Assembly: GCA_016165875.1 (NCBI GenBank)
Contig: JABBOT010000033.1
Coordinates: 186,001-250,000 of the forward strand
DNA: 64,000 nucleotides
Source: Acanthopleura granulata
Taxonomy: Eukaryota > Mollusca > Polyplacophora > Chitonida > Chitonidae
Direction of reading: 5' to 3'
The position numbers were made by a program, and so were the translations under genes. The notes beneath the pieces were generated by a model. It saw only the letters and a program-made list of their open reading frames with translations, did no database searches and was not told where the DNA came from. This document shows, in pieces, positions 14,518-59,092 of the stretch (position 1 is the stretch's first letter; each line of letters begins with the position of its first letter).

Positions 14518-16567
14518 TTACGCAATTGAAATTAGTGTATATGTAATTTATATAAAATCAAGCAAAATATCCTACGAACGTTCCGGCAACATGACGTCAC
14601 CAAACGACCACAGATACGTCAAATCAGTGGAGACACGGGAATAACCCCGAAGAAGGTTGATGCTATTGTCTCAGGCAATTTGCCAAAGCAATGAAGTTTT
14701 CCCCTGAAAAAAAATTGGGTTTTTAACGACCTGAGTTAGATAAAGTATTCCACTTTTATAGACGTCCCGTGTCACTCCTTATGTGGTGTGCGAGTACTTT
14801 TAGAGATGGCTGAACATACAGAGAGTCAAAAGAAACAGACTGTGGTTCTTGGTCATTCCCCATCTGCACAGACGCCGTTCTCTTCAGATCCATTCCTGGG
14901 AAATCCAATCAGATTGAACTGATTAAGGTCAGTTTAGGATCGCCCAAGACAGATCTGACATCGTGAGGTATTATTCAGCAAACTGGAGACAGTCTTCAGC
15001 TCAGTGAAAATTAACGGATTTGGCGTAAGGAAAGGTTTTCGTGCCGGTGAAGATTATTCTCGCGTAAGATAGAAGGCTAGGCCACCTTAAAAGTTATTCA
15101 GTTAAAAGAACCGAAGCCGTCGGATAAAAATAACAAATTAATTTATACAATCCATAAGGCAACGAAGGAAGATTCGATGTTGTTAAAAGGTGAAATGCCT
15201 GAAGTATACCTATACCTTCCCGATCGAAGGGATATTCTACATACCTGAATATTAACAACGAAAATGAAAGCAACGCCTACTCCTTTAAGATTTTTTTGAT
15301 CGGACTTAACGGTTCAAAGTGTATCTTGGTGGATTACTTGCACGAAGTGCTATTTTCAGTGCAATGGAAAGGACTGCCGCGGACTCAAATCTTCCTCCGA
15401 TGGAATTCCATAACAAAGAAAACAAAAAATATTATTAAGAAAATTGTCCAAAAATAAGGTTAATGATAGTTTTCCTTCAGTGTACAAACCTACTTGATCT
15501 CTTCTCAGTTAAATATTTAATAGGATATAATTTGTTATACAAAATTTCTTATGAAATATTTTATAATTACCTTTTCATGTGGGTTACTTTAATCTTGTAA
15601 ATGAAAACTGAACTGATCCAAGTGAAATAATATACTAGTGAAGGTATATTTAATCTATTTTACCCCATTAGTTATACTTGAAAAGCTATCCACTGTTCTG
15701 TGAAATAAAAAAAATTATTTAATTATAACGGATGATGACTGGGAAAGGTTATGAAGACTTCCCTTTGTTTAGAAGTTGACTAAAGATGTTACTCTGTGTA
15801 AGCAGCGCGAACTAGCCTGATGGAATTAAGACCGAAGAAAACTAAAGACAAAGAGGTCTGAAAGCTTTTGCCTTAATATATTTACTTGATATATAATACA
15901 CCAATAACTTCGAACGTTTGAAGCTCACGTTACTGGTTTTAACAAGGTGAACAATGTTTTACTCTTGTTATAGCTGGGACCAAATTGACAGGTATTATCC
16001 TTGGTTTTCTATCTTTGGAATAAAAAGTGAACAATCATTATGGATTCCATCCCGCAAAAATAATTTCTACCTATAATACATTCGCAAATGTTCCCTTTTC
16101 AGCTCACAGTGAGAAAATTTGACACCGCCTGTAATTGTGTGCCTTGTCTATTAACTTCATGCCGGATGTGCTGAGTCCGCTGATTGTTTGAAAATAGCAG
16201 GATGTGGTCAGCTGAAAATCGTTCCAACAACCTAGGCGAACTCCTCAATGTCAGTTCTTCCGAGAGTAATCCCCTCGTATGTTCTTTGGTAATAACCCTG
16301 TTAAGCGGCAAATTTATCCACTAGGGCATTATTTTTATAAACAGAGTGCTTAAAGGTATTTCCCGTTTAGAAAGAAAAAAATATGCCGGTATGTGGAACA
16401 AAACATTGGGGAAATCAGTTACACTGTCTGAGAAAATATACCAGAGAAAAAACAGCGAGAATTTATGACGGCGAGCATTCCAAATTAGATCTATTTACAT
16501 GTAGACAGGCCGATACACATAAGACTGTAAAGTAGAGAGAGAAAAAAGCTTAGTGTCATTCTTGGTT
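14518..16567. other. no recognised feature
   Basis: About 2 kb without an open frame of note apart from a 70-codon minus-strand one (16099-16311). 15500-15730 is strongly AT-rich. No repeats recognised. Confidence 0.3.
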
Positions 16568-17403
16568 TGTCATTTTGTTGTGTTGGTGAGTCGGCCATTT
16601 TATTGTGTTGGTGGTCTCAGCCATTTTATTGTGTTGATGGTCTCAGCCATTTTGTTGTGTTGATGGTCTCAGCCATTTTGTTGTGTTGATGGTCTCAGCC
16701 GTTTTGTTGTGTTGGTGGTGTCAGCCATTTTGTTGTGTTGGTGGTGTCAGCCATTGTGTTGTGTTGGTGGTCTCAGCCATTTTGTTGTGTTGGTGAGTCA
16801 GCCATTTTGTTGTGTTGATGGTCTTAGCCATTTTGTTGTGTTGGTGGTGTCAGCCATTTTGTTGTGTTGGTGGTGTCAGCCATTGTGTTGTGTTGGTGGT
16901 GTCAGCCATTTTGTTGTGTTGGTGGTGTCAGCCATTGTGTTGTGTTGGTGGTCTCAGCCATTTTGTTGTGTTGGTGAGTCAGCCATTTTGTTGTGTTGAT
17001 GGTCTTAGCCATTTTGTTGTGTTGGTGGTGTCAGCCATTTTGTTGTGTTGGTGGTGTCAGCCATTTTGTTGTGTTGGTGGTGTCAGCCATTGTGTTGTGT
17101 TTGTGGTCTCAGCCATTTTGTTGTGTTGGTGAGTCAGCCATTTTGTTGTGTTGGTGGTCTTAGCCATTTTGTTGTGTTGGTGAGTCAGCCATTTTGTTGT
17201 GTTGATGGTCTTAGCCATTTCGTTGTGTTGGTGGTGTCAGCCATTTTGTTGTGTTGGTGGTGTCAGCCATTTTGTTGTGTTGGTGGTGTCAGCCATTTTG
17301 TTGTGTTGGTGGTCTTAGCCATTTTGTTGTGTTGATGGTCTCAGCCATTGTGTTGTGTTGGTGGTCTCAGCCATTTTGTTGTGTTGGTGATCTCAGCCAT
17401 TTG
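16568..17403 (+). repeat. 25/26-bp minisatellite, about 32 units, with higher-order structure
   Basis: Tandem units of CCATTTTGTTGTGTTGG followed by tggtgtcag, tggtctcag or tgagtcag. The shorter tgagtcag form makes a 25-bp unit and recurs at 16795, 16976, 17131 and 17182. The spacings are 181, 155 and 51 bases, that is 7, 6 and 2 units, showing duplication of multi-unit blocks. The plus strand is rich in G and T and nearly free of A outside CCA. Because 26 bp shifts frame each unit, all three frames stay open for long runs. I treat those frames as by-products. Confidence 0.95.
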
Positions 17404-18048
17404 GCCAGATTTGTTTGGGGCTTTTTATTTAAAACAAAATACATTAAATGTGTTGCAATGATGCTTGTCACTCAGATGAGCGATGATGTACGAAAGCAGG
17501 TTGCACAGGTATGTGAGAATCAAAGCTATGAGGGTATTTAGCGAAGGGCGAGCAAAGGGGTTCACTGTAAAGCAAGCTTAATCTGTCATGTGTTGTGTTT
17601 ATCCACCAATGTGCAAAACTAGGCGCATCAATCTAACATTTAACAAAACGTCCACTTTCAATCTATAGGTTTTTGCACCTCAATACCTTAACGCAGATTC
17701 TTGCTTGAATCGTATTTACCTTAGTCAGCAATCTCATTAGCCCAATAAAACTTGTCTTCGTGTCCAATCATTCCGCTATTACGTAGGCTTGTCACACATC
17801 TGCAACAAAGGAAGAGAGTCTAGACAACATAACCCATTCATCAAGAACATGTTTGATTGTTTTAACCCAGTGAATCTCTTAAGGTTCTGTGTCGCTGGTG
17901 ATAAATAGTTTGCCAGTTCGGAGTCCTTTTGGCAAATGCTTCGTACATCTGGGCTCTGCTTCTGTGACGCAGGTCATGAGTATAAAACTAACCGTTGTTA
18001 TTTTGAGTTACAGCAATAAATACCCTGAATTTTTGCAAATGTAATCTC
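17404..18048. other. spacer between two minisatellites, no gene seen
   Basis: Unique-looking AT-rich sequence. A frame running out of the minisatellite ends at 17541. Confidence 0.35.
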
Positions 18049-47938: not shown

Positions 47939-48428
47939 ACACTTGGCGCGTTGAAATGGACAGTTCAACGGGACACGGTTTTCTTATTTTTGGCTGCATT
48001 GATCTTTCAGTGGAAATATACTAAAAAAAATATGTAAAAAAAAATGGCCATTGGCTAACTGGTAGAAGAGACCTCTCCGATCACCCTAATCATTTTTGTG
48101 TAATCCGACTGCTATACGGGGTTACTTTTACTCCATGTTTCACATGAATGTTAGTGTATCCTTTCTGTAGCGAGATATTGAACGACAAACCCCAAACCGT
48201 GAGGCTTGTATTACTCTGGTGTAGCGATTAGATGGTAGATTAATTATTGGCATATGCCATTTTCCTATCGTGTTGAACTTCATGAACTGATTGACACAAC
48301 AGAGAAACTCTTAGTGTGACATGGACATCTACCAGGTTACCGTAAACCAGTCGCCAGGTGGTTAATTTTGTGTCGTGACCGGTGAGCTGCACCGACTTTT
48401 GTAAAACCTGGTCAAACCTGCTGCATGC

Positions 48429-49232
48429 GTGGATCGCAAATGTACTCTTATTTGTGGCAGCGCTCCGTGCTTATGGTATTTCTCGGCCTTGTACAGCCAC
48501 TTCAGAATAATGTTAAACTCGAAAAGGCAACAGAAACGAAGGAAGGAAATGTCATCCCAAAGCAGCCTGGACGGGTCTTTGACCCCTCACAACGCTACGC
48601 ATGCCTGCCCACAGTGTGATCTGATGATCAAAGACCACGTAGAACTCATCATGTCAAAGTTAAACGATGTGGTCACAGGTGAGAAACGTTAAAAACAAAT
48701 GGAACAAACTGAATTGAACATTGTAAATAAATTGACAATAATAATTAAATAGGATGAGTCGCGCATATTTAACCTAGGGAAGGAAAACGAGATACTTAAA
48801 GACGATATGCATGCCTTAGATTTAATACATGAAAATGATCAGGAAGAACTTGCTAGAATAAGCTAACAGCTTGATGCACTCGATACCAAATTCAATGATC
48901 TGGAGCAACATTCGTGTAAGGGAAGTGTTCGTATGTATGGCGTCCAAGGTGACTGTTTAACTGAAAGTTCTAAGGAATGCACCAAGCGAGTTGTAATCTT
49001 GCTCTCCGATGAAATGAATATATGCATAGCTGAGAGTGACATAGACCTTGCTCACCGTCTGGGAACAACACAACAAGACCTGGAATCTAAACCCAAAGGA
49101 CTTATTGTTAAATTTATGACCAGGAAGCACAAAAACGAAACCGTTAGAAAAGAAAGGGGGAATCATACGGGGGAAGTTGTGCAAACTTCTGCCATCGGAC
49201 AGGCCTTCTCGCAGATTTTGCTGTCAATTTAA
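48429..49232 (+). pseudogene. decayed LINE ORF1-like protein
   Basis: One continuous reading frame from about 48429 to 49232 is broken by three in-frame stops (TAA 48690, TAG 48750, TAA 48864). In order it shows a CPQC-type Cys pair, a heptad-rich helical stretch (KENEILKDD, QLDALDTKFNDLEQH) and then an RRM-like segment (VRMYGVQGD, TKRVVILLSDE, DIDLAHRLG, KGLIVKFMTRKHKNETVRK). The order coiled coil, 'LEQ-S--- ...RIYG', 'AHR-G', 'VKF' is that of L1-type or CR1-type ORF1 proteins, RNA-binding chaperones of non-LTR retrotransposons. No endonuclease or RT follows. The insertion sits 200 bases outside the left inverted repeat of the helicase element. Confidence 0.75.
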
Positions 49233-49435
49233 GATCAGGGTACATAGGACCTTGAATTTCGTGGTACATATCCAATAGACTTTGTACAATATTTTGCAGT
49301 ACTAACCGACAGTATCGGCATTACACAAACACATTTATCAGTTGTTCAACTTACCTTTCGGTGTTACACAGTTCTTTCAGGGGCCTCATCTCCAGCAACA
49401 ATATAAATGCACTAGAAACATTCCTCGGAATATTG

Positions 49436-49877
49436 TCTATACCCGACCCAGGTGTCTCCTTCTCCAACTGATGTTGTATTGGAGAGAGAAATCACCCCAT
49501 CCAGCCCTGCCAGCGTTCTCACAAAGATGTCAATAAAAAAAATTTACCTTCACCCACACTGCTCAGATTTGTTGTCCTTTGTCTTGAAACTACTATATAT
49601 TGTTTTCTACCACAACCACACCAGTTCTGGTCGTTCACAGCAAGAAATAACACATTTTGTTGCTTCACACACGTACATCTCCCCCCAACTTCAACTGGAC
49701 ACTGAGAAATTGTGCTAGTGCGCAAGCGCAAACATCGGTGTATGGGCGAGAAGGGCCAACATGCGACAGCAATGCCACTGGATCCAAGGTTTTCGCCTAA
49801 CACATCAAAAGAGTACTTGCAACCTTTTTTTCCGTGCAAACTTGTAGTCGCCATGAGAATTTCTGTTAGTAAACATG
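49436..49877 (+). repeat. left terminal inverted repeat
   Basis: Aligns with the reverse complement of 57926-58340 throughout: tctatacccgaccc at the outer end, gatgttgtattggag, ccagcgttctcac, tttaccttcacccacactgc, cacaccagttctggtcgttc, gcaagaaataaca, cttcaactggacactgagaa, attgtgctag, gggccaacatgcgacagcaa, and at the inner end ccgtgcaaacttgtagtcgc and gtaaacatgg. The last ATG is the helicase start, so the repeat would also serve as its promoter and 5' UTR. Confidence 0.85.
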
Positions 49878-52136
49878 GCCCTGAGTAAAACCATAAACGA
49901 AGTTTCGACAGAATTATTGCCATATAAACTGAAAAAAGTGCGGAAGTAGGTGCTCCAAAATATTTGTAATGGCCGACATGTCATTGGGATCCTTCGAACT
50001 GGCTGTGGGAAAAGCCTTTGCTTCGGGTTGCTCCCGGCCATCATAAAAAAAAGGTGTTTTTTTTTCTTTGAAATTGCAGACGGGTCTTCTCTTCGCAAAC
50101 TTGCATGCATAGGTGTAACAACACTTTTTTTAAAATCCAAGTCTCATGACTTACACGATGATTATTATTTGCTAATTAACTGCGCCCTGATGACGTCCAC
50201 ACCGTCCTAGTAATATCTTCTTTACGATCTGTCATGATGGACAATAGTAAGCGTATAATGACAATTACAAGGTCAGTAATCTTCAAAGTAACACGTATTA
50301 AGTAAACTTTTCACTGTGTGCACGAAAGCATTCTGTTACAGTTTGGCCTTTTGAAAAAGGTAATCGGCAGCTTAAACGCAAATGTAATAAATCACCGACG
50401 TCCAATAAAGGTCCGGATGATTGATTCGTCTTGAATTGTGATATAGGTGAGCAACAGCTATTGTTGAGTTTGTGGATGTCGTATACTTCTCTTGTAACTA
50501 TCTGTCATACTGTGACAATTACAACAATTTTCGTTCAATTATTGAGTTGACACTTTGAAACTACCATGGCCTCACAGATAATTTAGTTCCTCTGTTGATA
50601 TTCTTACAATAGGCATTGAGGAAGACAAATATGAACTGTTGTTTTCGTCCCCGGTATCAATATTTAATGAACCATGGTGGGTTTTTCTAAAGAAGAGGCA
50701 TCAACAAGTGCGTTGTTTGGTTATCGATGAGGCTCATTGTGTAACAACATGGTAGCTATTACCTCTTTTTTTGGTAACTTAGGATATTTCTTAAGTCAAC
50801 TTTGGAACATTTCTTTATTGACTGAATGTATTCGTGTGTGTAGCGTTCATGCATGCAGCCAGTGTTATGGGTGTGGGAAAGTGGAGTGAACCATCAACCG
50901 TTGGTATGTCGCTGACGAACTTGCACACTTATATCGCCTATTTACTGTCCACAGCCACATTTTCCTACACTGCTCCACAAAACGTTCTTGCGAAATGTGC
51001 GCACGTGTGCCTTAAAACAAACTCAAACGGAAAGCCAACACCGAAAACGTAAATGTCTGCTTCTGTGTACTAGTTGTAGAGGGAAAGAATTCCGAAACAG
51101 TACGTCCATATTGCCAGTGTGCGAGACGCTCTGACGGTAGAATATCCCGTTTTGGCGTTGACGGCAACAGCAACTGAAGAAATGCTTCCAGAACTGTTGT
51201 TCACCTTATCTCTCTGTCGGGAGGAAACCCAGCTGATTGCCAAGCTGCCAAACAGGTTGGCATGTCTTGTTATGAAACACCCATGATAAGCAATTACTGT
51301 CTTGAAGTCTCATATATACATGTACAATTTAATATATTTCCTTTTTCCAGGCCAAACATATACCTAGAAGTTGACACCTGTAGGGGGACTCTGCCAAGGT
51401 GCTTAAAAGCGTCATTATCAGTGTAATCGGTGAAGGGAATGAAGCCACTGAAGTGCTGATTTATACAAGGTATTCAAAATACACACTTTCAATCAATCGT
51501 CGTTTATCAGTGGCCAGAAATACCGACCCGCGAAAGGACAAATGGAACTGAAACTGGCATTTTCACAATGTTTAATCAATGCAATATGTTGATTCCTTTT
51601 CATTTGAACCATGGATGACAAACTGAGGGTTTACACAGGACTGATAAAAAGTCTGGGCATGAATATGTGGGTAGATGGAAGAAAAACGTCGTTCAAAGAA
51701 CGTGTGGAAATGTATCACGCTAGGACAGATCCGGTCCCCCAAAGAGACATTCTGCAACGTTTCACTACGGAAACATCTCTCAAGATAGTTGTGGCTACCT
51801 GTGCCGTCGGTGTTGGTGTCAAGTTCCAGATGTGCGATATGTTGTGTACTGTGGCCCGGGCCACAGCTTGCTGGACTTATGGCAGCAAATTGGAAGGACA
51901 ACGAGAGGCAGAGAACCTGCCAAAACCAGCATATATTTACCTCCTAGTTGTCTCAATCGGCACACCACCTCTGAAGATTGAGAGGGCCGATGAACACGCT
52001 GACAAGCGAAAGACCCTGCATTCGCCATTCTTTGCTGTCACTCCTGTTCGTCGTTCGGATGCCCAGTGACGAACTGAAATATTGTTCCCAGCAAACAAAG
52101 TGTTGTGCACACTGTCAGGAGTCTGCAACAAGAATT
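49875..52136 (+). pseudogene. RecQ-like SF2 DNA helicase, multi-exon, disabled
   Basis: An ATP-dependent 3'-5' DNA helicase of RecQ type, as far as motifs show. Exon 1 (49875-~50055) starts MALSKTINEV and has Walker A as RTGCGKS. Exon 2 (~50195-50248) carries motif Ia, VLVISSLRSVMMDN. Exon 3 (50613-50751) carries motif II, CLVIDEAHCVTTW. Exon 4 (51082-51255) has motif III, VLALTATAT. Exon 5 (51351-51469) ends EVLIYTR. Exon 6 (from 51628) has RVEMYHARTD, KIVVATCAVGVGVKFQ (motif V) and, one frame over, YCGPGHSLLDLWQQIGR (motif VI). Several exon borders are GT/AG and phase-consistent. Lesions: TAG at 49947, a frameshift near 51390, and another near 51828. A Cys-rich end (CCAHC) may close the protein. 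Confidence 0.85.
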
Positions 52137-54587
52137 AATTAAATCCTTAAAATGTATATATACTGCGTCTCTGTGTTGCTGGCGGAGTATATGCCGGCCA
52201 ATGAAACATCATGACGAATACACCAGACATGACACTCCACCCAGTCACATTATACTGACACTGGGTCAACCAGTCCTGTTTCCTTTGCCTAACGTCTCAG
52301 TGCTGAGTACCAAGCGAAGCAGCAACAGGTTATATTTTTGTAGTTTTTAGTATGACCCTACCAGGATTTATTCTGGGGCTTCCAACTCCACCAGGCCACA
52401 GAGGCGGTTATAGCTCTGCAAAAAAGTGGTCTAAACAAAAATAATAAGGGAGCAGCCATAACAATGACCATGTTACGGGAAGCAACCCTAAACAAAAATA
52501 CCTCCATACCTACCACAAAAGGGTTAAAATGCTGGCATAGTGATGCGCTCACGGTGAAGGCAACAACGGAACTCATGCTAAAACGGCTGCAAATGACTAC
52601 CTATTTTGTGGGTTGACACTTACACCTAAATATATCTAGTGCATTTGAGGTCTTCATGCAGCTATGTGCAGAAGTCTCTCTCAGTATTCAGCTTGGCTCC
52701 CATCCTCTGAGGATTGCTGAGTGAGCACTTCCTGGTGTACAGTTCAAACGCCCTGTGGCAGCGTAGGGGTGAATCGACTAACGCGTCAGCGAAGTATGAA
52801 TCAACGAAAAGTGATACATCCTTCTCAGTATCACCCTTGCGGGTGTAGTCGAGTCCGCAGGCAACCCAACCCAGAGTCTGATAAGATATTATCGAGATGA
52901 CGGCCATAGGCCCCGCTCGTTTGGGTAACCCGTTACACCATGTTGTGATTGTAACGACCATGGGAGGGCTGCAGCATTTCTGTGGTATAAGTAAAATATC
53001 ATATATAAATATGCAAATGAAGGAATAGGGTGAATAGTGGCAAGGAATGATTGTTGAGTAATACATCTGAAGTCTCGGTTCATGAACTTGCTCACCAGGC
53101 CCATTTCGATATTATTCCCGGCTTTGCCTTCTAAACTGGCAACCCTGTTCCACTTCAGGTCATGGCGCATACGTGCGCACAAGCCGCCTATGCCTTTGGG
53201 GATAATAGGAGACAGCAACTGGTCGTGTGAGTGTTTGTAAAATTAGCAACAAACCAACACAACTTTTAACACGAAAGAAGTAAGAAGTAAATAAAGAAAG
53301 AAATTTCGCTAAATTAATGGCCAGAGAAACGGTCAAAACTTTTCACTGATTACAAAATTACATTATTTTTCTTTATTACATTACATGTGTTCAGCGTGGC
53401 GATCAAATTCGACACGAGGAAAATTAACAGGCAAAATTAAAGAGGAAAATTCCCCAGTCCACATGCTGTTGGAACTTGTACACATATACCGCAGGGGAAC
53501 CAATAACCAAGGATTGCATGTTACACTTACTATTACATACTTACCTGCAAGTATATTAAACCTACTGATCAGGTAATGTGGATCAGTAAATGGAGTGCGT
53601 GCTGTTAGCACAGCCATCGCTACAAAACCAGTACTCTTGTGCCATTGGGGGGTGGTCTGTCGACACATTCGGGGTGGAACCACTGGTTCCAGCAAAGTGG
53701 GTTGTAGCATAGGACCATGCAGGCGTCTTCCTTGACGTTGACAACTGTACATAAAAATACCAAACAACTCAGAGAGTTGTCAACTTTTCATTAGTGAGCA
53801 GTGCTAAGGGCTTTTAGTTCTTACTTCCCAAACAGTCCATCAAAGGCAGTATGGCGAAATCAGTGTACTCGGATGTTTCTGGATAAGCCTCAAACCGCTT
53901 GAATACCAGGGCTACTCGCCAGACGTCTTCCAGTGGAATTGAATAGCACACGGAATTCACAATTCCTGCGGTCAAGCGTTGGACCCAGGCAAGCTTTTCC
54001 GCTTTCAACCTAGACGCCAGGAAGTTTGATGAAGTGTCCTTTACCCACTCTACACTCTTCATGCCATCAACATCATGTATCCAATTGTGAGAAACTAAAG
54101 ATGGAACGACATTCCTATTGAGAGAGTGTATACCTTTGTCAGTAATTAATCGCAGCAAGGTCATTACGACTTTGGCGGATGCGGTTTTCTTGGATGTTGA
54201 ATTATTACTACATAGGTAACTAGCAATCTCATTTTAATCGCATGTTTTCCCGATAATGCAATGTGCGGGAAACAAGCCTTGTGGTTCGCTCAGATCCCTA
54301 CTTAGGGGTTCGAACAGTGACCTCGAACATTTTCCAGGGTTGTTTGAAATTAGTCATAAATTTTTTCTACAGGGAATTCCGGTCGAACAGGATTTTCACG
54401 TTCACCTATGTCCCTCTGGGGAGATGGCTTTCCTCAGGGAAAACTTTGATCATCTCATCCTTGAAACGAAGTGGGACAACGTGAAGTGGCAGGAATGTAA
54501 TATACTAATAGCATCCTACTGCTCTTAGTGTGGTGTGTTAAGGGAGTTTCCAGTTAGAAATTTGCATTCTTGCCTGATCGTGAGCAA

Positions 54588-54715
54588 ATTGTGGATGGTC
54601 ATGAACTTTCACGAGGTTGTGCCCGGTTTCTTCCCAACACTATGCTGGCTTCTGTGGAATGAGTGAATTATTCGTGAGCACACCTAAGACATCCATCTAT
54701 TACATAAAGAAACCA
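54588..54715 (+). mobile_element. SINE family 1, degraded 3' fragment inside the element
   Basis: Has tgtggatggtcatgaacttt, ggtttcttcccaacactatg, then a degraded gaatgagtgaattattcgtg and agcacacctaagacatccat. It lies in an intron of the minus-strand gene, so it postdates or is tolerated by that gene. Confidence 0.6.
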
Positions 54716-56589
54716 GATCGTCATTAAGATTGATGGAGAAACATATCTACTTGTGTTGGATGGTCCACCCTTCACAAAACAGCTCCCGCTATGGTTGAGT
54801 GCAATTCTAGACTAATTTTCTCGACTGTAAACTGGCGTAAAAGGTAACGCACAAACCACCATCGTCAATGACATAGCTCTTACCTGAAGTAAAAGAGCTT
54901 CCTTGTCGAACCCTGAGGGTGTTTCCTCCACCCCCGCTGCACACCCGTACGCGAATGTTCCATTTGCGCAGAGGCGTTTAGCTGACCTTGTTAAATGGAT
55001 GGTGGCATTTTCCCCATGGGCAACAATAGGTATGACTTCACCGTCTATGGTCTTAGGGAGAAACTGATGAAGATGATGAATAATTGTTACAGTCCCCTCC
55101 GTTGTACCCGGGTCAGCCGACACCTACATTTCCCTGCGATGAAACAGCAGCAAGATTCTTCTTAACGTTCAATATAACCAAACAGTATAGATGATGAGTG
55201 TAGGCGGGATTTCCCCGCAATACATGCAAAATACTTGTGATCCCAACTCATTCTTTCATAGACTTAAGCAAATCTATATTCATGTCTCTGTGGCGTTCTT
55301 ACAATTGCATCATAAACAAAAAAAAACAATTTGTGTTTCTCCATATTGCTGTCTTGCCACCAGATGCTATGGAGTTGAATAGATTCCAAACACCAGTGGC
55401 GCCTTGTGAAACATTTAACGACAATTGTGAGGATGTTCTCAGATGCCAATACCATTGTTTTTATTTCCCTTCAAGGCCTTTTTAATGAGACAAGGAAATA
55501 CATGTTTTGATTTTCGGATTTACAAGTAAATCATTTCAATACCAGAACGTCATACAGAAGAAATGAACTGTAGAAACTTACGATGTTGCTTGCCAGATTT
55601 ATCTCTTTGGTGAATTCATGGGCTCGGTGCTGCGGAACAGACACACCCACACACACCATGTGATGCGCAATAGTTTTGGTGGTTAGAAATACCATTCTCC
55701 TCCGAGGTTCCATGACCGAAGGGTCGAGATCTTGGGCTGACGAAGTCAGACGGAACTCGGTTCTAAGCGGCGTAAATCGTAGCCCATATCATGAGTTGGT
55801 TTTTCGCAGGGTTTGCGTCACATCCAGCAGGGGTCTGTATTTGGACGTTGTCCTAACCCATGCTGAAACGGCTGTGCTCCCTCACCTCCAAATTCAACCT
55901 ACATCCCTGGAAAAAGTGTGTTGCTGTTCATAATACACCACCGTCTAAACTTAAGAAAGCAATTAAGCATCCACTGTTTATTTCAATCAGCCCAAACAAT
56001 TAAAAGTTGTCCCTCCCTCGCCCCACCCACATCCGCTAGTAGGTAGCAGTTCTCAAACGTGTAATGGCCATTTCGTCTCCAATATCTTACTCGTTACATA
56101 CACTTACTCCTGAACAAGTGTAGTTTCTTAAACTATGGCTGCTTACTGCTTAGCACCAGATAGAATGCAACCTCCGAGCACATAAATAGTTACTGCCAAT
56201 TGGCTCTGCTCATGTAGTAAGCAAAGAGTGAAGTATACCTCTACAGCTTTTTTCCAAGTGTCCATTTCATCAGTGTGGTGTTTAGCAAGTGAGGTGTCTA
56301 CCTAACTTCTTAAAGCTTAGACGCCCCCGGCTTATGCCAAATCGGTTAAGTGTTCTGAAGAACTGTTCGGTGCATCCTTGACGCCACAACTCTGCGTCAA
56401 TACATGCCTGCAATCAAAGATATAACACGCTGATGTCAGTCGTTGACAAGGTTCATAAGTAAATGTGAAAATGTTAAAGGCATAGAAGGATGAACAGATT
56501 TTACCCACAATGAAAATGGATGATAACCTTCACCGTCTTCCAGAGATTCTAGAACGAAAAGGAATATTCTCGAGATAGGTATCAAACAA

Positions 56590-56790
56590 CAAGCCTCTGA
56601 TGTCAAGTGACTTTGAACTGTGAGGTCGCATGCTCGAATCCAGGTGTGGTCTTTCAGGCCGCGGCTATGTCAAAAGGTTTGTAAAGCGATGGCTACGGTT
56701 GGTGATTTCAAACATTTAGGAAAGTGGCCGCCGTCATAAAAGTCCAACATTGTGGCGTAGGACGTTAAACCCAAATCATTCAATGTGATG
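56590..56790 (+). mobile_element. SINE family 2, long copy
   Basis: Carries a B-box-like gcatgctcgaatccaggtg, then tatgtcaaaaggtttgtaaa, gcgatggctacggttggtga, ggccgccgtcataaaagt and gacgttaaacccaaatcatt. This is the most complete member of family 2. The head before 56600 is diverged. Confidence 0.65.
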
Positions 56791-57925
56791 TTTGGAGAGA
56801 GCAATCAATTTTAAAATCATATTCTTTTATATTTTGCGAAGGAATTTATGTATTCATTGAAATGTACTCTCACAGGGGTCGTTTGTCATAGCGATTAAAT
56901 CTAAAAGAATGGACTAATTGTTGTCTGGGGAGACAGTGTGCATTGCCTTCGACAACACTAATCCAACTCTCTTACTCATAACTTCCGCGACTTCAAGGTT
57001 CAAAGAAGTTTTATTTCCATAGAATGTCTTCGTGCAAGAATACGCAATGCGATAAAACGTATGCTTATATATCATGCTATGTTTCATCAATAAATAAATG
57101 TGAATAATTGTTGACGTATTTGTGATAGCATTGTTGATATTGTGTATTCAATGATTCGTGATCCTGATATCGGTATAGCACGAGAATACAGTTTATAGTA
57201 AGTTGATTGTGGTATATTGGAATTTCTTGGGATATTTTCACCTTCTTTGTTTCCTCCCTCTTGTGGAGAAATGCCTGATAATCGGTTGTGAGTGCCCAAA
57301 GATTGCACTCAGTGCTTTTCCCGCACTTTTTTAAGCACCGTTTTCCAGGAAAACCCTCGTATATATGCCTGGTCCACAGTTGCAGCAAACGTTGTCTTTT
57401 AGACATTGTTCCTTATTTGCTCCGTAAAAATAAAGTACAGATTCCAACATATTATGAGCACACACGCCGTCTGCCTAATATAAATAATACATCCGCCTAC
57501 AATCCTCAGAAAGTTGGTCAATATTTAGAACCTGAACATAACACTAATCCATTATTGTTAAACAAACTAAATGTTAAATAATAATTTGGAGAAGGGGAAG
57601 GGACATTAACCCCGTTTCATTTAGTAGGTGACCGAGGGTAAAAATCGGTATTTCTATTTGTTGCTTTCATTTGTACGAGTAAAGTTATCACACATTCATA
57701 ATTACAACAAATGGCATACTTCTTGTTCAAGGGAACAGCATATTTCCTGCAGGATTGCTTCTTTGACAGCCGGGATAGACAGCATGTGACGCACTGCTGT
57801 TCTGTAGTTAGAACAGACGACACCTGTGGTTATTTGGCTCCTGCTAGCCTGTGATCGGAGCACTGGTACAGCTGCATCCTGAAGGCCTTCAACCATGTCT
57901 GTGTGTTTTCTTTTCCGTGAATTTC

Positions 57926-58340
57926 ATGCGATGTTTACTCACACAAGTTCTAGTACCGACTAACAATTTTGCACGGAAAAAAGTTGCAAATCATCTTTTG
58001 ATCATGTGTTTATAAATCATGTCATTTATCCAATCACATTGTTGTCGCGCGTTGGCCTTTCTCGCCTGCGTGCTAGCACAATTTCTCCGTGTCCGGTTGA
58101 AGTTTGGAGGAGACGGACTGTGTGGAGCAACAAAATATGTTATTTCTTGCTGCGAACGGCCATAACTGGTGTGGTCGTGGTCGAAATCAATAAAGAGTGG
58201 TTTCAAAACGAAAGACAACAAGCCTGAGCAGTGTGGGGGGAAGGTAAACTTTATTGATAGAAATTTTTGTGCGGACGCTGGGAAGGCTTGATGGAGGTGA
58301 CTTGTATCTCCAACACAGCATCAGCTGGGTCTAGTCTATA
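57926..58340 (-). repeat. right terminal inverted repeat
   Basis: Reverse complement of the left repeat with scattered substitutions and a gap of about 15 bases near the outer end. Core shared blocks on the minus strand: atgctgtgttggag, cccagcgtccgcac, ccccccacactgctcag, ccacaccagttatggccgtt, gcaagaaataaca, cttcaaccggacacggagaa, attgtgctagcacgcaggcg. Its inner end lies about 30 bases from the start codon of the minus-strand gene. Confidence 0.85.
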
Positions 58341-58931
58341 CAGTGCTGCCAACATATTCTTACAGCAATATTGCTAAATTCCAAGACAAGATAAAAATCC
58401 AAATAGCCGCACTAAACGTCATTCCCAAGCACAGGCCACTTTGGCCACACAATGCATTATATTTACAATCTTTATCGAAGTCTAACTTGTGCATTGAGCG
58501 TATCCTATAGATAATGACCACTGATTAGCTTTTACAGCAATATTTTCATCTCAATAATAGCAATACTGGTGTGTAAACGAGCCATTGTTGATACAGGAGA
58601 GCGAATTAAAAACGGGTTACTTTCCGCCGTGTTTTTATTGTTTTGATGATTCCACGGAATGATGTAGTTGCCAGGAGTGTAGGTGTTTTGTTTTGAGAGG
58701 TTAGATCTTTTGTTGAGTATAAATATTAGTAGCATTGCGGAGAGGAAGTTTTGGGGAATGTTTCATACTTACCGATGTTGGAAGTGAGGATATCAATGGA
58801 GCTGTGTAGCAACAAAAAGTATATTGATAATTTTATAATTCTGTTCTCTTTTGAGCTATATCGCTCATTTTTGTTGCAAAACTTTCCCCATATATTAATC
58901 TTGACCAGCCAGTTGCAAGGGTCTAGGATAT
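58341..58931. other. no recognised feature
   Basis: AT-rich sequence outside the right inverted repeat. Nothing recognised. Confidence 0.3.
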
Positions 58932-59092
58932 GGCAGCAAAATCCGTGAGAACACCTTCATTCTGGCTAACGGTGGCAAAATCCGTGAGAACACCTTCATT
59001 CTGGCTAACGGTGGCAAAATCCGTGAGAACACCTTCATTCTGGCTAACGGTGGCAAAATCCGTGAGAACACCTTCATTCTGGCTAACGGTGG
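58932..59092 (+). repeat. 39-bp minisatellite, 4 near-identical units
   Basis: Units GGCAAAATCCGTGAGAACAC plus CTTCATTCTGGCTAACGGT repeat at 58935, 58974, 59013 and 59052 with essentially no differences. As 39 is divisible by three, the array is open as a 13-residue repeat on both strands (minus: MKVFSRILPPLAR). The frame ends soon after the array, so I do not call a gene. Confidence 0.95.

Follow-up and report, generated by a model that had tools for sequence, protein, structure and literature searches.

The window analysed here is a stretch of 64,000 nucleotides from the chiton Acanthopleura granulata (contig JABBOT010000033.1, positions 186,001 to 250,000, forward strand), and at 49443-58333 (8,891 bp) it carries a transposon copy with inverted arms of about 400 bp. 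We consider it about 85% probable that this is a dead copy of an AcademH-like element, from among the Academ terminal inverted repeat (TIR) DNA transposons that bear a helicase, with tail-to-tail genes for a RecQ-type helicase and a DUF6589-family protein. The initial annotation of this DNA had proposed a TIR transposon bearing both genes, a proposal borne out by an 8-bp target-site duplication and by the recurrence of the gene pair at four further loci. Beyond that annotation, both genes proved to be broken, the minus-strand one into scattered pieces. The outer features are as follows.

49435-49442, no strand: left target-site duplication GTCTATAC, 8/8 identical to the right copy.
49443-49879, plus strand: left TIR, with the shared terminus TAGACCCAGGTGTCTCC, the first two bases of which differ in the window copy.
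57928-58333, minus strand: right TIR, from the arm alignment and the shared terminus.
58334-58341, no strand: right target-site duplication GTCTATAC, 8/8 identical to the left copy.

The left arm (49464-49879) aligned locally to the reverse-complemented right arm (57928-58328) with a score of 376, as against a mean of 21.6 and a maximum of 86 when 286 pairs of arms were drawn at random from the window, in agreement with the long inverted repeats first annotated around the region. The ends were placed at 49443 and 58333 because the terminus there is common to other copies, and the exact 8-bp duplication lies directly outside both. In the genome searched (606.5 Mb, 87 contigs) the left TIR had at least 47 matches, a figure that includes the window itself and counts some copies at each end, and the terminus, allowing at most one mismatch, occurred at 31 sites compared with two for a reversed-pattern control. 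Target-site duplications were surveyed in 12 copies with two recognisable ends, single-ended loci being uncounted, L008 being dropped as a repeat of L024, and the left end of L027 being placed by eye. At least k-1 of k bases matched in five of the 12 (window 8/8, L014 7/8, L024 9/9, L002 8/9 and L016 8/9) and in none of 132 cross-pairings of ends used as a control at k = 8 or 9, from which the target-site duplications are taken to be 8 or 9 bp long. Weaker duplications were seen in L027 (7/9) and L034/L035 (6/8). No duplication was seen in L026, whose left end was unrecognised, or L025, whose left end was a four-mismatch match, both of which stood outside the count of 12. With dispersed copies sharing its TIRs and a target-site duplication around it, the window element is a TIR DNA transposon.

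Four short copies (L002, L016, L024 and L026) share an internal deletion whose junction joins 50044 or 50050 to 57894, where the minus-strand start codon ends, and retain at most about 175 bases of the helicase start with remnants of Walker A. They are non-autonomous internal-deletion derivatives of an element with this layout. As the short copies keep the helicase start at a common junction, the repeats and the genes form one unit. Other short copies have different junctions or end inside the TIRs (e.g. L014). The initial annotation had allowed that TIRs found elsewhere without the genes would speak against it; short copies lacking full genes do exist, but four of them are the derivatives that keep the helicase start, and these favour the proposal. 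Six loci with one TIR each (L009-L013 and L015, on C3 and C35) were rejected as elements, being copies of one duplicated tract; these tracts are long and about 80-93% alike, and their single TIR is one insertion multiplied by large duplications.

The genes lie between the repeats as follows.

49875-51960, plus strand: RecQ-type helicase gene by its predicted product, broken, five pieces on TIGR00614.
52662-57896, minus strand: broken DUF6589-like gene in several pieces, presumed to encode the transposase, with nine collinear blocks common to L051 (C14).
53060-53206, minus strand: C-terminal DUF6589-like block, GLVSKFMNR in the window and DLVNELINR in the C14 copy.
53623-53748, minus strand: PHD-finger-like remnant (PHD_NSD, E 0.056).
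54881-55123, minus strand: first DUF6589-like block, HGENATIHLTRSAK in the window and NGDSHSVERMRSAK in the C14 copy, the C14 homologue matching PF20231 75-148.

Both genes start near the repeats, much as first annotated: the helicase begins with an ATG at 49875, where the left TIR reaches its inner end, and the ATG of the minus-strand gene (57896-57894) lies some 32 bp inward from the right TIR. The helicase gene is interrupted by an in-frame stop at 49947-49949 and has motifs V and VI in different frames. Its pieces (Walker A from 49950, DEAH at 50582-50752, motif III at 51080-51283, motif V at 51650-51829 and motif VI at 51826-51954) fall in order on TIGR00614 at 22-51, 94-142, 149-191, 254-290 and 293-330. 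All five matches are weak (E 7e-4 to 0.12) and under the curated cut-off, and for two single pieces DpdF or RecG outscored TIGR00614. Since each piece is weak singly, the RecQ call rests on their order, and by these ordered RecQ-family motifs the plus-strand gene is predicted to encode a RecQ-type helicase, inward-facing as originally annotated. Comparison of the pieces with solved structures mostly gave no match, the exception being DDX17 (E 0.054). Clusters of several RecQ pieces at five other genome places (C5, C1, C83, C8 and C18) look like the host's own genes, which would make the window helicase an extra copy.

The minus-strand gene is best understood through its relative at locus L051 on C14, with which it shares the nine collinear blocks at E values from 4e-14 to 0.024. 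A genome-wide search with the first C14 DUF6589 block likewise returned window positions 54881-55108 (C33:240881-241108) at E 6.4e-11. In the C14 copy, DUF6589 (PF20231) ranked first among 24,736 Pfam families for three blocks, collinear in the gene: one matching 75-148 (E 2.1e-4), one matching 258-320 (E 0.0047 in a long frame and 0.046 alone) and a C-terminal one matching 336-365 (E 0.033), whose counterpart in L045 matched 331-366 (E 0.024). The three C14 blocks score below threshold, yet their collinearity points to a distant kinship with DUF6589. The initial annotation had recognised DUF6589 blocks in the window copy itself, where none is detectable: Pfam gave no DUF6589 match on pieces or read-through frames, and the window was not among the loci listed in a whole-genome DUF6589 family search. 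The assignment therefore holds solely by way of the C14 homologue. Protein database searches found no homologue, and a search of a plasmid collection gave no match.

In the C14 gene a PHD finger, matched by Pfam PHD at E 3.8e-4, lies between the first and second DUF6589 blocks; the best solved structures for it were ING-type fingers (PDB YNG1 PHD finger, E 1.4e-5). The DUF6589-like protein is probably the transposase of the element. The candidate catalytic residues in the C14 copy are the D of NGDS and the E of NELIN; this aspartate and glutamate are both changed in the window copy, which would have lost both if they are catalytic. Also within the transposase gene, 54583-54684 resembles an interspersed repeat in L046, L048 and L049 (translated) and in L020 (DNA), and is possibly an old insertion. 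A further DUF6589-like block was noted on C2:37495732-37495935 (minus strand, E 2.2e-4).

The two genes also occur together elsewhere in the genome. The transposase-side piece of the C23 copy, used as a query, found four other places (one elsewhere on C23 and one each on C14, C19 and C1), of which those on C14, C19 and C1 were taken forward and C23:29163-29479 was left out; the comparison of loci also set aside weak RecQ-family places such as C7:17798151, C10 and C25. The places on C14, C19 and C1 all carry helicase sequence, at most about 1.5 kb from the nearest transposase block, and the C23 copy, which had been located by a RecQ family search, carries transposase sequence. The genes are convergent at all four loci, as in the window; at C19 there is also an upstream DUF6589-like block, on the same strand and some 15 kb distant. 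Both genes together were found at none of 18 control loci; the controls included L049 and L050, originally picked as RecQ-like, and gave a helicase match at L050 and one weak transposase match each at L019 and L030. The pairing of helicase and DUF6589-like gene recurs at four further loci, two of them (C23 and C1) close relatives, and it is real without being universal. The prospect, raised with the initial annotation, that the two genes might never co-occur is refuted by C14, C23, C1 and C19. Inverted repeats present at C14 were rejected as TIRs of the element there, as they look like an interspersed repeat of other loci.

Several observations weigh against an AcademH-like element built on this pair of genes. 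Target-site duplications were absent from five of the 12 two-ended copies, and TIRs were not recovered within the stretches examined at C14, C23, C19 and C1. DNA-level similarity between C1 and C23 means that the two are not independent, and at C19 the stretch matching the helicase is short (fewer than 20 residues, E 8e-5 and 0.003). Among six extra RecQ-like loci, a DUF6589-like partner was detected only at C23, and none at C86 (two loci), C7 (two loci) or C83; L046 and L048 (C86) and L047 and L050 (C7) may represent separate transposons or solitary pseudogenes. The DUF6589 matches of L045 and L051 are under the Pfam cut-off of 27 bits, the best C14 block reaching 20.5 bits, and Pfam gave no DUF6589 match for the C19 block or for a further three pieces of L051. 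The single DUF6589 fragment over the Pfam cut-off, on C8 (L030/L031, C8:56277-56867), was not similar to the window gene in a pairwise comparison, and no helicase partner was found near it (Pfam scan of the plus strand of L030); it may belong to a different transposon lineage.

These partnerless loci bear directly on whether the helicase is a passenger cargo, outside the transposition machinery. Five of the six extra RecQ-like loci, lacking a detectable transposase, would fit such a passenger, but the same layout is common to the widely divergent copies of the window, C14, C23/C1 and C19, which suggests an old pairing that has been kept, and we regard the passenger reading as unlikely. If the helicase and the DUF6589-like protein do serve one AcademH-like transposon, the DUF6589-family protein would be an RNase H-like transposase that binds the long TIRs and cuts and joins the ends, and the helicase may unwind the ends or aid the processing of the gapped target in repair. 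ING-type fingers bind histone H3 trimethylated at lysine 4 (H3K4me3), and the PHD finger between the DUF6589 blocks could anchor the complex on methylated H3. We offer as a tentative proposal, more doubtful than otherwise, that DUF6589 is the catalytic transposase of helicase-bearing Academ-type elements, and that in this lineage an ING-type PHD finger, inserted between its catalytic blocks, steers insertion to H3K4-methylated chromatin while the element's own RecQ helicase processes the ends.

Around the element, an exact 39-bp tandem repeat of four units (58936-59091) lies a little to its right, and just to its left two open stretches at 48405-49232 (plus strand) resemble by eye ORF1 of a long interspersed nuclear element (LINE), with an 'AHRLG' block. 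Elsewhere in the window, 16001-18000 has a strong strand asymmetry (GC skew 0.20, AT skew -0.26).

Kojima (2020) reportedly described AcademH as the helicase-bearing Academ lineage, a DNA transposon of animals and fungi. Academ transposons were stated in 2013 to encode a RecQ helicase (PMC3627910, in the portion available), and the available portion of a 2023 account gives target duplications of 9 or 10 bp for AcademH and 3 or 4 bp for AcademX (PMC10045372). Set beside Academ by description only, the window element is likely an AcademH-like member of the helicase-bearing Academ kind: it encodes a helicase, and its duplications are near 9 bp, off by about one base from the length given in those excerpts. 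The likeness is incomplete, in that duplications of 8 bp (window and L014) and 9 bp (L002, L024 and L016) stand against 9-10 bp in the excerpted AcademH account, a further point against the assignment, and in that the portions of the AcademH accounts available mention neither DUF6589 nor a PHD finger. The duplication lengths of 8 and 9 bp would suit a new superfamily of DUF6589 transposase and RecQ, with 8-9 bp duplications, apart from an Academ that is itself known here by description only. A discrepancy of one base may stem from how the ends were assigned or from lineage, and RecQ in a TIR transposon with duplications of about 9 bp fits Academ/AcademH as described in the passages available, so that a separate superfamily appears rather improbable.

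Kolobok and KolobokH have target duplications of TTAA. The 8-9 bp duplications observed here depart from this, and the window element has no TTAA duplication. KolobokH does resemble it in carrying a RecQ helicase in a transposon; according to the available part of its description, the helicase accompanies a DDD/E transposase and lies downstream of it, and the reports come solely from fungi (PMC9587614). That the element belongs to KolobokH or another RecQ-bearing Kolobok lineage rather than to Academ is accordingly very unlikely. No other full-size copy bearing this TIR together with both genes turned up in the genome, which might suggest that repeats bracket two unrelated decayed genes by chance; the probability of that is negligible in view of the helicase start retained at a common junction in short same-TIR copies, the target-site duplication and the recurrence of the gene pair.

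An AcademH-like element with these two genes would suggest a concrete role for DUF6589, a Pfam family of unknown function, and would place a possible chromatin-targeting finger inside a transposase. With a second enzyme kept beside the transposase in divergent copies, the need of a transposon for its own helicase becomes testable. Genome annotators should look for transposon ends around such RecQ-like and DUF6589-like genes before assigning them to the host.

Of the remaining known systems, AcademX resembles the window element as an Academ superfamily member with an accessory enzyme, and differs, as far as the excerpts consulted go, in having a nuclease rather than a helicase and 3-4 bp duplications. 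Pfam DUF6589 (PF20231) is the best Pfam family for the three collinear C14 blocks, whereas every C14 match is under its curated cut-off and Pfam lists the family as of unknown function. The papers on the RAG transposon (RAG1-RAG2) and on Mutator-like elements are said to contain the term 'PHD finger', which suggests that such fingers are not unheard of in transposon proteins. In the literature searched, a scope outside which lay articles behind a subscription, the reports of Repbase and Kojima (2020), DUF6589 was unnamed and none of the papers listed combined Academ with a PHD finger. The pairing of a RecQ helicase with a transposase is not new, as RecQ in Academ and KolobokH is already in print; what is possibly new is DUF6589 as this transposase, together with the ING-type PHD finger within it.
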